A DNA stretch of 40,228 nt from Sphaerochaetaceae bacterium. GTDB lineage: Bacteria > Spirochaetota > Spirochaetia > Sphaerochaetales > Sphaerochaetaceae. The DNA lies in assembly GCA_024699225.1 (NCBI GenBank), contig JAILPZ010000039.1, forward strand, positions 1 to 40,228, written 5' to 3'. The notes under the pieces were generated by a model, which saw only the letters and a program-made list of their open reading frames with translations, did no database searches and was not told the DNA's origin. The position numbers were made by a program, and so were the translations under genes. This document shows, one piece after another, positions 23,832 through 28,722 of the stretch; the stretch's first letter is position 1, and each line of letters opens with the position of its first letter.

Positions 23832-25214
23832 ATGGCTAAAACTGAAGCAGTAAGATACGTCTGTAGTATGTGCGGACACAGCAGCCCGAAATGGCTCGGC
23901 CGCTGTCCGTCATGCGGAGAATGGAATTCATTTACAGAAGAAAAGACAGCCCCTGCCTCCAGGGGAGGGAAGAATGTAAGCTCCTCATCTCAGAGCCTTT
24001 CATCCATACCCGTAGAAAATGAATTCAGATTCTCAAGCGGAATATCTGAACTGGACAGAGTTCTTGGAGGTGGGATTGTCCACGGATCTTCTGTACTTGT
24101 AGGAGGAGAACCGGGGATTGGAAAATCCACCCTCATGCTTCAGGTTTGCCACCTGTGCAGTGCCAGGGGTTTGGTACTGTATGTTTCAGGCGAGGAGAGT
24201 GCTTCTCAGGTCCGTCAGAGGGCAGAGAGACTCGGCCTTGACCTGGAGAGAATCAATATTCTGTGTGAGACACATCTTGAGGCAATCTGCCATGTAATTC
24301 GCACAGAAAAACCCCAGCTGGTTGTAATAGATTCATTACAAACCATTATGAGTGAGGAGTTTTCATCAGTCCCCGGATCTGTACCACAGATGCGCGGAAG
24401 TTGTCTGGAAATTAATACGGTTGCCAAACAGAATGGCTGTTCCGTTTTTTTCATAGGGCATGTAACTAAGGAAGGAACTATAGCAGGTCCTAAGATCATA
24501 GAGCATATGGTTGATACTGTTCTTTATTTTGAAGAATCGGAACTGGACAACCGTTTAATCCGTGCGTCTAAGAACAGGTTCGGGGCTGCTGATGAAATTG
24601 GTATTTTTGAGATGGGCCAAAATGGTCTGACTCCGATCAAGGACCCCTCCTCATTCTTTATTTCAAAACGTGAGAACAACGAACTGTCACCCGGAACAGC
24701 ATACGCTACCATCTCAGAGGGCTCCAGAACCTTTGTTGTTGAAATACAGGCTCTTGTAACAGATGCAAAAAGCTCATACACAAGGGTTTTCTCAGAAAAG
24801 ATAGACAGCCAGAGAATAATGAGAACAGCTGCTATTCTTGAGCGCCATGCAGGACTTAGGCTCAGCGACAGGGATATCTATATAAACGTAGCCGGAGGAA
24901 TCCGCGTAAACGAAGTTTCTGTTGAGCTTGCTGTTGCAGCTGCCATCTACTCCGCCTTTACGGGAAAGTCCCTCGACGGGGATGCTGTGTGGATGGGTGA
25001 GCTTTCCCTTTCCGGAGAAGTCAGACCGGTAAGTTACGGAGAAAGAAGACTTAAGGCGGCAGATGACATGGGCTTTAAGAAGGCCTATCTTGCTTCCTCC
25101 ATGGCTGTGGCTCTCGGGGACAAAACAAAGATTAACTTGTTTGGCTGTAAGAAAATATCAGACGTGCTGCGTCAGCAGGGAACACGCGGGGCCAAAATTA
25201 CATACGAGTTTTAA
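23832..25214 (+). CDS. radA: DNA repair protein RadA (Sms)
   Basis: RadA is a RecA-like, DnaB-type helicase that processes recombination intermediates. The 460-residue protein has the N-terminal C4 zinc finger (Cys11, 14, 25, 28), the Walker A GGEPGIGKST (91-100), the RadA-specific KNRFG motif, and a C-terminal Lon-protease-like domain (from about 340, with VAGGIRVNE and WMGELSLSGEVRPV). AAGGA precedes the ATG, 8 bases after the immunophilin stop, so they are likely co-transcribed. The stop overlaps the stop of the convergent ATPase gene, and no terminator is evident. Confidence 0.97.
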   Translation: MAKTEAVRYVCSMCGHSSPKWLGRCPSCGEWNSFTEEKTAPASRGGKNVSSSSQSLSSIPVENEFRFSSGISELDRVLGGGIVHGSSVLVGGEPGIGKSTLMLQVCHLCSARGLVLYVSGEESASQVRQRAERLGLDLERINILCETHLEAICHVIRTEKPQLVVIDSLQTIMSEEFSSVPGSVPQMRGSCLEINTVAKQNGCSVFFIGHVTKEGTIAGPKIIEHMVDTVLYFEESELDNRLIRASKNRFGAADEIGIFEMGQNGLTPIKDPSSFFISKRENNELSPGTAYATISEGSRTFVVEIQALVTDAKSSYTRVFSEKIDSQRIMRTAAILERHAGLRLSDRDIYINVAGGIRVNEVSVELAVAAAIYSAFTGKSLDGDAVWMGELSLSGEVRPVSYGERRLKAADDMGFKKAYLASSMAVALGDKTKINLFGCKKISDVLRQQGTRGAKITYEF

Positions 25215-26488
25215 TAGTAAAAGATCTCTTCGTTAAGCAGAAAATCCTCAAGAGAAATGAAAAGATAGCCTTTTTCATTGTAGTGCCTGACAGTCTTGTC
25301 AAAGACAACAACAATCTTTTTAAAAGAGTCTGACAGGAGGTCGTATGGCCTGGTTTCCTGATTCATTTTGTTCTGATTCTCAACAGAATAAGCGCTTTGA
25401 ATGTAGAATCTCCGGCTCCCTTTGTTTGCGATAAAATCTATTTCAAGCATTTTCTTCTTGTCTTTTTCTCTGCATTCAACATTTCCTACATCCACCATGA
25501 AACCTCTGTACTTAAGCTCATTGAAAATAACATTCTCCATAAGGTGGGTATTTTCAATCTGGCGGAATGAAAGGCGGGCGTTTCTTAGTCCGGTGTCTTC
25601 AAAGTAAATCTTAAACGGGGTAGAAATATATTTTCTTCCTTTTAAGTCGTATCGTAAGGCCTTGTCCAGAATGTAGGACTCCCTGAAATACTTTATGTAT
25701 CTGGAGATGGTGTCTGCTCCAATGTGAACCTTTTTTTCTGACAGAAAGGTGTTTTCAAGTTTTAACGGGTTTGTCAGGGATGATATTCCTGAGGCAAGAG
25801 TATCAAGGAGTTCATTCAGTTCTTCTGTGTTTTTTAGATTGTTTCTTTCAACTACGTCTTTGATATAGGTCTTATTCAGCTGATCTGTAAGATATTTCAT
25901 CTTGCTTTCTTCTCCGTCAGAGAGAACAACACGGGGCATTCCTCCATATGTCATATACTCTGCAAGAGCGGAAGAAACATCTCCTGCACGGTAAGCATAA
26001 AACTCAGAGAAAGAAAGCGGCATGACATGTATTTCATCCCCTCTGCCTCTGAATTCCGTAACTACATCCGTTGAGAGAAATTTTGAATTGCTGCCGGTAA
26101 CATATATATCAATGTTTCCTCTGGAAAGATATCCGTTCAGAACGAATTCAAAAGACTCCAGCATCTGAATCTCATCCAAAAGAAAGTAGTACTTTCCCTC
26201 ATCTGTTATTCTGGAAGAAATAAAAGACATAAACTTTTTGTAATTGGCCCCACGCCTGGCCTTCTGCATTTCAACCAGATCTTCTCCAATCAGTTGCAGA
26301 TCAAGGGCAGAATCAAAAGAAAACATTATAATTCTGTCTCTATCCACACCGGAAGAGAGAAGATAGTCGTAGAAAATGTTTTTCAGAAGAAAAGATTTTC
26401 CACATCTTCTTATACCGGTGATAATTTTAATGGAGTCATTCCACATTCTTTCTTTCAGCCGTTCAAGGTATAAAGGTCTCTGAATCAT
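25211..26488 (-). CDS. AAA_14/DUF4143 ATPase
   Basis: This 425-residue protein belongs to the widespread archaeal/bacterial AAA family often annotated as 'ATP-binding protein'. It has the Walker A GIRRCGKS near residue 25, a Walker B with LLDEIQ, the sensor segment VTGSNS, and the conserved YGGMPRVV. The C terminus is DUF4143, with an EIDFI...YIQSAY pattern resembling the PD-(D/E)xK nuclease fold remnant. Its role is unknown in general. AGGAGG precedes ATG 26486-26488. Upstream there are two 39-bp repeats, and its end converges on radA with overlapping stop codons. This patchily distributed family, with repeats beside it, is the only accessory-looking gene in this arm. Confidence 0.88.
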   Translation of the reverse strand: MIQRPLYLERLKERMWNDSIKIITGIRRCGKSFLLKNIFYDYLLSSGVDRDRIIMFSFDSALDLQLIGEDLVEMQKARRGANYKKFMSFISSRITDEGKYYFLLDEIQMLESFEFVLNGYLSRGNIDIYVTGSNSKFLSTDVVTEFRGRGDEIHVMPLSFSEFYAYRAGDVSSALAEYMTYGGMPRVVLSDGEESKMKYLTDQLNKTYIKDVVERNNLKNTEELNELLDTLASGISSLTNPLKLENTFLSEKKVHIGADTISRYIKYFRESYILDKALRYDLKGRKYISTPFKIYFEDTGLRNARLSFRQIENTHLMENVIFNELKYRGFMVDVGNVECREKDKKKMLEIDFIANKGSRRFYIQSAYSVENQNKMNQETRPYDLLSDSFKKIVVVFDKTVRHYNEKGYLFISLEDFLLNEEIFYY

Positions 26489-26525
26489 ACTTTCCTCCTG
26501 TACTTATCAAAATAACACAGAGGAT

Positions 26526-26531
26526 AGTATA
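26526..26531 (-). promoter_or_regulatory. Candidate -10 of the AAA_14 gene
   Basis: TATACT on the minus strand matches the -10 consensus at 5 of 6 positions and lies about 38 bases before the start codon. The -35 position falls within repeat 26545-26583 and shows no good match to TTGACA, which suggests activator or repressor input there. Confidence 0.35.
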
Positions 26532-26544
26532 AAACAAGAAAGCT

Positions 26545-26583
26545 ATTCGGAATTTTTTCCGTTTCTGCCCTTTTTTCCGAATG
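26545..26583. repeat. 39-bp repeat A upstream of the AAA_14 gene
   Basis: This copy matches 26618-26656 at 36 of 39 positions. Each copy begins ATTCGGAA and ends TTCCGAAT(G), giving inverted ends, and has an inner TTCCG, so CGGAA/TTCCG occurs three times per unit. It adjoins the candidate -10. Confidence 0.85.
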
Positions 26584-26617
26584 AAAAACCCTAAAAACAG
26601 CTAAAAATGGAAAATCC

Positions 26618-26656
26618 ATTCGGAATTTTTTCCGTTTCCGCCCAATTTTCCGAATG
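26618..26656. repeat. 39-bp repeat B upstream of the AAA_14 gene
   Basis: Partner of 26545-26583. Here the inverted ends extend to a perfect 10 bp (CCATTCGGAA at 26616-26625 / TTCCGAATGG at 26648-26657). It ends 8 bases from the cysE stop codon, so it may also act as a hairpin at the 3' end of the cysE transcript. Confidence 0.85.
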
Positions 26657-26664
26657 GAGAGGCT

Positions 26665-27528: not shown

Positions 27529-28722
27529 TTAACCGAATATCTTAAGAACAATCGGAAACAGTACGAATGTTCCAAGAATACTACCAATACTTGTTGTGAT
27601 AAAGATTAAAAAGGCGTGAAGGACGCGGTTTTTAAACCAGCCCTTAACTGAAGCAATATCGTCCGAGACTGTTTCAAAGTCTTTGACTGCAGGCTTACGG
27701 AGTTCGCTTTCAGCAATACCCGTAAAAACTCCAACACCGATTAACGGATTCATAACGGCTACCGGAGCACTTACTGCAGCAACTATCCAGTTCAGAGGAT
27801 GTGCATTTGAAAGTATGGCAAAGAGCATGGAGCCTCCTGCATTTGAAGCAGCCCAGAGAAGGAAGTATTTAACGCCCTGCTCAAAGCCGTAGTTAAAGCA
27901 TGAGTAAAGAACAAAGGCAACGATTGCAAGAGGAACAAGCCAGGATACAACCTTGCCGGCCTTTGACGGGGGCGGGACGGTTTCTATCTTTGAAAGGTCT
28001 GTAGAAATCTCGTTCTTTTCAAGTTTCTCTATGGTCTTAACTATTCCGTTTGCATGACCTGCACCAATTATTGCAACCTTGTTCTTACCCTCGCAGTTGT
28101 AGATACTTGTAGCCAGGTATCTGTCGCGCTCATCAATAAGGGCAGCCTTTGCCTGGGGAAGTTCTTTGGCAAGCTCTCCCATCATGTTTTCAATAGCTTC
28201 ACCTTTCTTGAGCTCTTCAAGGTCTTCTGCCTTAATTTCTTCCTTGTCAAAAGCAGAGGAAATGAGGGCTCCGAGAAGCTTGGCCTTGTCAAAAAGACTG
28301 CTCATGGCCCAGGCCCGTTTAAGGGTTACTGTAATGTCTCTGTCGCAAAGGGTGAACGGAATGCCGCGCTCCTGAGCAATTCTTGCCCCTGAGAGAATCT
28401 CTTCTCCGGGAGAAATTCCGGTCTGTGCTCCAAGCTTTTTCTGGAAGGAGGCGAGGGCAGTGTTTGCAAGAACAAGAAAGGCTTTACCTTCCTTGAAAAT
28501 CTTTCTGAGGCTGGTTTCCGAGTATTTTTTACCCTCTGTCTTTGATGTGTAGCGGCCCTTGTCGAGCTCAATGCAAATCATGTCGGGGTTTTCCTGGTCA
28601 ATTATCCTCTCTACGTCTTCAACACTGTTTTTGGAAACATGTGCCGTACCTACGAGGGTTATGGTATTTCCGTTGTCCAGGGTAATCTTTTTAATTGTGT
28701 CGCTTACCGCCTCTGTTTTCAC
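27529..28722 (-). CDS. TraB/PrgY-family membrane protein
   Basis: The 397-residue protein has the TraB/GumN-type fold: the N-terminal LVGTAHVSKNSVEDVERII, ICIELDKGRY and the central VAIIGAGHANGI, which carry the conserved His and Glu residues proposed to bind metal. The C-terminal part (from about residue 255) has several hydrophobic helices, so it is an inner-membrane protein. PrgY of enterococci limits pheromone peptide activity, and a protease role has been proposed for the family; here the role is unknown. The start is GTG at 28720-28722, with GGAG upstream. It leads the traB-cysE unit and diverges from the glycosyltransferase gene. Confidence 0.88.
   Translation of the reverse strand: MKTEAVSDTIKKITLDNGNTITLVGTAHVSKNSVEDVERIIDQENPDMICIELDKGRYTSKTEGKKYSETSLRKIFKEGKAFLVLANTALASFQKKLGAQTGISPGEEILSGARIAQERGIPFTLCDRDITVTLKRAWAMSSLFDKAKLLGALISSAFDKEEIKAEDLEELKKGEAIENMMGELAKELPQAKAALIDERDRYLATSIYNCEGKNKVAIIGAGHANGIVKTIEKLEKNEISTDLSKIETVPPPSKAGKVVSWLVPLAIVAFVLYSCFNYGFEQGVKYFLLWAASNAGGSMLFAILSNAHPLNWIVAAVSAPVAVMNPLIGVGVFTGIAESELRKPAVKDFETVSDDIASVKGWFKNRVLHAFLIFITTSIGSILGTFVLFPIVLKIFG

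Follow-up and report, generated by a model that had tools for sequence, protein, structure and literature searches.

In the passages of PMC12988326 devoted to PDC-S01, this system is presented as a PADLOC single-gene candidate for phage defence, in which an ATPase is fused to a PD-(D/E)XK domain, and validation is stated to be pending for most PDCs. These passages and those on PDC-S01 in PMC13356809 place it as the fourth most common prokaryotic defence system and as the most frequent single locus in rumen genomes, and neither set mentions upstream repeats or autoregulation. A search of the open-licence PMC literature (preprints being outside its scope) found no description of such sites for PDC-S01/DUF4143. 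Autoregulation through repeated palindromes is itself of a known kind, while these sites would be new for the family. According to the passages of PMC12255303 that describe it, RptR is a DNA-binding repressor of its own phage-defence-island promoter, which recognizes repeated palindromes at the -10 element. RptR is a small, separate helical protein, and its site consists of three 9-bp repeats with a 6-bp palindrome.

Archaeal Orc1/Cdc6 proteins on origin DNA (2qby, 2v1u) and the ATPases 2qen and 2fna have in common with the protein studied here an ATPase domain followed by a winged helix. Iteron-binding plasmid Rep proteins are winged-helix proteins that bind direct repeats of about 20 bp beside their own gene and exert autoregulation.

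The locus reported here lies in a stretch of 40,228 nucleotides of a Sphaerochaetaceae bacterium (contig JAILPZ010000039.1, hereafter the window), and consists of a gene for an ATPase of 425 aa with AAA_14 and DUF4143 domains (25211-26488, minus strand) preceded by two nearly identical repeats. For this locus and its homologs, we computed the architecture of the elements, their phasing, their uniqueness in the genomes searched, their covariation with protein residues, and their co-insertion with the gene. The protein matches the PDC-S01 profile and holds the same ATPase and PD-(D/E)XK fusion as that of the PMC12988326 passages, with the difference that the catalytic lysine is missing in the clade of the window. 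By analogy with RptR in the PMC12255303 passages, the protein is proposed to control its own defence promoter through repeated palindromes. In contrast to RptR, the candidate effector ATPase is itself the apparent reader, and the sites are two of 40 bp, 6-8 helical turns apart, with a sequence specific to each locus. With respect to Orc1/Cdc6 and 2qen/2fna, the window protein has an extra PD-(D/E)XK-like domain, and its sites are promoter-proximal pairs. Rep iterons and the 22-23-bp arrays found in other DUF4143 clades are alike by description, whereas DUF4143 genes, unlike those of plasmid Rep proteins, are largely located on chromosome-size contigs, several per genome.

The inserted gene and its two repeats

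In three genomes of the same genus, the convergent genes radA and cysE leave about 12-31 bp between them. In the window, what lies between the two is exactly the ATPase gene and both repeats, a unit (25215-26664) that is absent from those three genomes. No repeat is found at the 3' end of this unit. Judged from this comparison of sequences, the gene and its sites move as one unit.

Both repeats are read on the minus strand. Repeat A, the proximal element (26544-26583), has the arms CATTCGGAA and TTCCGAATA and is centred at about 26563.5, 76 nt before the ATG. Repeat B, the distal element (26617-26656), has the arms CATTCGGAA and TTCCGAATG, is centred at about 26636.5, 73 bp from A, and ends 8 bp from the stop codon of cysE. 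On the gene strand, each copy takes the form CATTCGGAA...TTCCGAAT followed by G or A, with complementary arms of 8-9 bp around a 22-nt centre. The preliminary description of two near-identical 39-bp repeats with palindromic ends was confirmed: 36 of the 39 positions of the core are identical (three mismatches), at an offset of exactly 73 bp. These copies constitute the single direct-repeat family of the window (45 nt, 89% identity, spacing 73; 26539-26583 and 26612-26656), and a 25-nt core searched with up to three mismatches found only the two repeats in the window and no such pair in 100 dinucleotide shuffles.

The sequence of the repeats is also unique to the locus. Across the whole assembly, which measures 1.44 Mb and is 80.6% complete, exactly two matches were found for a 38-nt pattern with up to three mismatches, and likewise exactly two places for the outer arms searched without mismatch (TTCGGAA-N20-26-TTCCGAA). 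Since an assembly of this size and completeness holds two copies only, the elements are not dispersed repeats, as had been suggested as one option, and none is scattered elsewhere in it. The genome search for CGGAA-N-TTCCG units that had been put forward as a check proved unspecific (46 places versus 48 for a reversed-pattern control), and would in any case miss pairs of other sequence beside homologs. When the 151-bp region was used as a DNA query against 60 relatives, only its own locus gave a meaningful match and the others were at chance level (best E 0.0018), because the sequence of the element is locus-specific. Absence of the repeats beside the same ATPase gene in relatives had been named as a refutation; the sequence of the window is indeed absent there, while the paired architecture is present with other sequences.

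The gap between cysE and the ATPase gene measures 176 bp. Both repeats are located in it, as first described, although they do not fill it, with a leader of about 55 nt left between repeat A and the ATG. In this leader there is a -10-like hexamer, TATACT (26526-26531, minus strand), for which no acceptable -35 was found; no site passed a sigma-70 promoter scan of the region. In several respects the window is atypical of its family: 76 nt separate the proximal centre and the ATG, compared with a family median of 30.5 nt, the -10-like hexamer is found past the proximal element, on the ATG side, and not between the two elements, and the inner arm is not clearly palindromic (palindrome scores of 7 and 8 out of 12). 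Upstream of cysE, the window also encodes a protein of the TraB/PrgY/GumN family (27529-28722, minus strand).

Paired palindromes before homologous genes

The key approach was to compare the upstream regions of homologs for architecture instead of for the window sequence. The set comprised 254 unique homologs, drawn from genomes of the same family, 80 named loci on genome contigs (Bacillota, Bacteroidota, Fibrobacter, Slackia, a Thermoguttaceae bacterium, and others) and 54 IMG/VR loci, after dropping those with less than 150 nt upstream or with identical first 200 residues. A repeat pair (score of at least 13, offset 40-110, within the last 200 nt before the gene) was found before 114 of the 254 homologs; among the controls, it preceded 5 of 316 neighbouring genes and occurred in 4 of 249 regions downstream. 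Read by eye, four of the five control matches (L060, L147, L225, L226) come from genes in divergent orientation that have the same element in common. Among the 140 homologs that fail the pair criterion, inspection by eye showed one copy or two diverged copies in some and nothing recognizable in others. The palindromic character of the proximal copy was scored separately, and values of at least 10 were reached in 70 of 224 homologs, 4 of 316 controls, 2 of 221 downstream regions, and 0.6% of shuffles. By class of protein identity, repeats scoring at least 12 were present in 32/46 homologs (at least 50% identity), 34/82 (47-50), 41/59 (44-47), 12/37 (40-44), 1/2 (35-40), and 5/28 (20-35). Unusually strong direct repeats were also observed downstream of the ATPase gene at two loci, L155 and L103 (scores 92 and 82).

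Homologs in Spirochaetota, Bacillota, Bacteroidota, and other phyla thus carry a palindrome pair before the gene, with a sequence that differs by locus. The best relative of the window protein (L038, 67% identity) has two copies of another palindrome, at a distance of 82 bp and with 11 nt left between their end and the ATG; this palindrome has only two copies in its own genome and none in four other genomes searched. Up to 10 homologs are listed per genome. None of 47 within-genome pairs of elements exceeded 70% identity, compared with 3.2% of 773 between-genome pairs; as about 1.5 within-genome pairs above this value would be expected, the zero is not significant.

Across 77 loci with two copies each, and counting outward from the centre, base pairing is seen for positions 2-7 and 12-17 but is missing for 8-11, and therefore each arm holds two half-sites about one helical turn apart. 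To the left and to the right of the centre, positions 8-11 are rich in A on the gene strand. The result is a fixed architecture of outer arm, A-tract, and inner arm, mirrored, in which the two A-tracts occupy one and the same strand; a plain dyad operator does not need such an asymmetry. The distance between copies at 109 loci falls at 62-68 bp (11 loci), 72-78 (72), 79-81 (1), 82-87 (22), and 95 (3), with a best period of 10.4 and a resultant of 0.57, compared with at most 0.30 in 5000 jittered sets. Such helical phasing is a sign of double-stranded DNA read by proteins on one face.

The position of the elements with respect to the presumed promoter and start is conserved in the family, the window being the outlier. 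TATAAT-like hexamers peak 28-19 nt upstream of the proximal centre which, together with the distance of this centre from the ATG, suggests that in most homologs the promoter would lie between the elements and the proximal copy would cover the transcription start and the leader up to the Shine-Dalgarno sequence. On this reading, the pair would flank or overlap the promoter.

The ATPase and its covariation with the elements

The protein matches the PADLOC profile PDLC04787 (PDC-S01) over residues 1-420 (E 3.1e-107), and both Pfam AAA_14 and DUF4143 are above cut-off; NCBIfam gave no match, and no solved structure was found by sequence search. The AAA ATPase domain (residues 1-166; 25991-26488, minus strand, as are all features of the gene) has the Walker A motif GIRRCGKS and the Walker B motif LLDE. 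According to its secondary structure and structural hits, the AlphaFold2 model (pLDDT 93.6, pTM 0.92; model residue numbers are one lower than those of the protein) is predicted to consist of an ATPase domain, a winged helix, and a PD-(D/E)XK-like domain. The best VIA-align matches are the archaeal ATPases 2qen (Z 16.6, rmsd 3.3, 256 aligned) and 2fna (Z 16.3, rmsd 3.7, 261 aligned), over residues 1-306, and the Foldseek matches include DNA-bound Orc1/Cdc6 and also VC1899, Cdn1, and Can2. In the nuclease-like domain, the (D/E)-X-K motif is replaced by a degenerate one, Q364-S-A366 (25391-25399), identified by homolog alignment. All 220 aligned homologs share Q364 in a Q-x-A/T/S/V motif, and none of the 220 has Lys at 366, so that an intact catalytic motif is absent in the clade of the window. 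In this clade the domain may be a DNA reader instead of a cutter.

Covariation between protein columns and element positions was measured as weighted, APC-corrected mutual information at 117 of 224 homologs, excluding those with a palindrome score below 9 or shorter than 380 aa. Ranked first and second in the scan are the pairs of residue 259 with bases -14 and +15, which are symmetric about the centre of the element. This residue is close to where the predicted winged-helix recognition helix begins (residues 258-270; 25679-25717; placed from the structure model and the covariation). Both pairs, and no others, exceeded the highest value of 60 permutations restricted to clades, with either of two clade definitions (n=117). 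The code at residue 259 reads Asn-A, Lys/His-C, and Glu/Asp-G (weighted counts N-A 23.0/29, K-C 9.6/13.2, E-G 8.1/9.2). Stated for the opposite strand it becomes Lys/His-G and Glu/Asp-C, which are the usual chemical preferences.

The code was applied to 29 held-out loci, which as homologs of the training loci are not independent by descent, and 75 of 116 base calls agreed (shuffle mean 35, maximum 62); in the distal copies of the training loci, 51 of 70 agreed (shuffle mean 24.8, maximum 41). The window, which is outside the training set, encodes Asp259 (codon 25712-25714) and shows G in four of four arms when centred on its arms; its automatic centring (as L037) was misplaced, and it counts as 0/4 within the 116. 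In a test of independent pairs on the tree, Asn-A changed in the same direction at -14 in 6.7 pairs versus 0.6 in the opposite one (12 pairs, median p 0.039), and at +15 in 6.1 versus 2.1 (p 0.29), the other residue classes having too few pairs. Residues 340/345, in a hairpin of the PD-(D/E)XK-like domain (340-345; 25454-25471), pair symmetrically with the inner arm, and residues 290/296, in the wing, with the A-tract; neither beats the permutations, and both contacts are suggestive only. The covariation of residue 259 with -14 and +15 argues that each element is recognized by the product of its own gene.

Operator pair, assembly site, or other element

On these data, it is likely that the two repeats are an operator pair recognized by the ATPase that they precede, serving autoregulation and most likely autorepression. 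The idea of autoregulatory operators had been raised at the outset, and as a candidate it is now strongly supported by the paired architecture beside homologs, the phasing, and the covariation of residue 259. Each 40-bp element would be read by a symmetric dimer of the protein of the adjacent gene, whose recognition helix, with residue 259 above all, would contact the outer arm in the major groove, with the wing over the A-tract. The inner arm, set one helical turn closer to the centre, is probably contacted by the hairpin of the PD-(D/E)XK-like domain, whose catalytic motif is degenerate. The elements would be separated by 6, 7, or 8 helical turns (7 in the window), and whole turns would place both dimers on the same face of the DNA, able to bridge or loop across the promoter. 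Autorepression would be the most economical function of this arrangement, and the private sequence of each locus is proposed to insulate it from paralogs. Any link of the operator pair to phage infection is one that we infer.

A terminator of cysE was another of the options of the preliminary description. The repeats are codirectional with cysE and directly beyond it, and on the cysE strand repeat B contains one weak terminator-like stem of five pairs (shuffle mean 0.2). Nonetheless, the long stem is not followed by a U-tract, homologs have the pair in other gene contexts and keep the proximal copy between the -10 and the Shine-Dalgarno of the ATPase gene, and relatives of the same genus without the insertion have no such pair beyond cysE, which makes a terminator very unlikely. 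Equally improbable is a small mobile repeat of the REP or MITE kind, or a transposition end. The gene and repeats do form an inserted unit, with repeat B only 8 bp from the cysE stop, but the two-copy count in the assembly, the lack of a repeat at the 3' end of the unit, and the rarity of pairs downstream of homologs speak against it. A role at the RNA level, with the repeats as hairpins in a leader or small RNA, is very unlikely as well. Taken singly, the copies have a somewhat more stable fold than shuffled sequences (z -2.3 and -3.1), the sense strand would offer A-rich internal loops, and the proximal copy of the family is partly in the presumed leader. Against this, the spacing is helically phased, for the region as a whole the gain in folding over shuffles is small (z -1.2), and Rfam gave no match for the window region or for three homolog loci. 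From the position of the -10 peak, transcription would begin within the left arm, which would then be missing from the RNA, and there is no excess of G-U (flanked mismatches in the arms, G.T 43 versus A.C 42; breaks between copies, 44 versus 56), which also argues against an RNA hairpin. A mini-CRISPR with two repeats and one spacer was set aside given the helically phased spacing and the finding of no cas gene among the few neighbours inspected.

More weight has to be given to an iteron-like assembly site, in which an Orc1/Cdc6- or Rep-like ATPase would have the repeats as its main substrate (for an origin-, partition-, or anchoring-like function), with autoregulation as a by-product; even so, we consider it unlikely. 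It draws on the Orc1/Cdc6-DNA complexes among the Foldseek matches and on the wider DUF4143 family. Within this bacterial family, several of 54 divergent DUF4143 loci (60 were fetched and six dropped for having no start assigned) have upstream tandem direct repeats of 22-23 bp (for example L391, L399, L404, L405) or 32-33 bp (for example L393, L406), and the viral-contig clade has a spacing of about 40 bp; a repeat score of at least 12 is seen in only about 22 of the 54, and the remainder show none. Direct repeats beside the gene of a putative initiator are therefore present in other DUF4143 clades, the initiator role being a candidate one. It draws also on NZ_CP133466.1 (L420), a 2,630-bp circular plasmid record of Prevotella nigrescens whose only two annotated genes are this ATPase, with a paired element upstream, and a TaqI-like specificity-domain protein. 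This tiny record may be a replicon or an assembly product. Against such a site, up to 10 homologs are listed per genome, the window copy sits between two housekeeping genes, and a proximal copy on the presumed transcription start of its own gene better fits an operator.

Repeats in other plasmid homologs scored at chance level, namely a 13-nt repeat with one mismatch at 32 bp in an archaeal plasmid and a repeat at 39 bp in an Enterococcus plasmid. Among 62 labelled rows of the window clade and the divergent loci, in four classes, spacing changes class seven times on the tree, a count made without a shuffle control. Iteron-like tandem repeats of 22-23 or 32-33 bp were also noted before the gene at two further divergent loci (L396, L412). 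In the genome of the window, three tandem TTGGCAAATTTTCA-like copies precede another DUF4143 paralog (L068, contig C66). An archaeal plasmid homolog (L427, 2429-5987) has a viperin-family antiviral gene three genes away, a setting that resembles a defence locus.

Beyond the operator pair, a broader proposal can be made tentatively, as a possibility that we regard as somewhat doubtful: PDC-S01/DUF4143 proteins may be self-addressing DNA-binding ATPases. Their loci would have a private address, read through a decodable residue-base code, with a geometry specific to the clade (23, 32/33, 40, or 62-87 bp), and the gene and its address would travel as one mobile unit. The address would then be the core of the mechanism, through ATP-dependent assembly and release or activation on infection, and not a mere thermostat of expression. 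If this were true, a private address would be central to the mechanism of a very common candidate defence family.

A candidate cognate DNA site for each protein offers a direct handle for binding assays, DNA-bound structures, one-residue swaps of specificity, and reporters of release signals, and the loci constitute a natural covariation data set for the specificity of winged helices. The finding raises the question of which role this family has: defence effector, regulator, or iteron-type machine.
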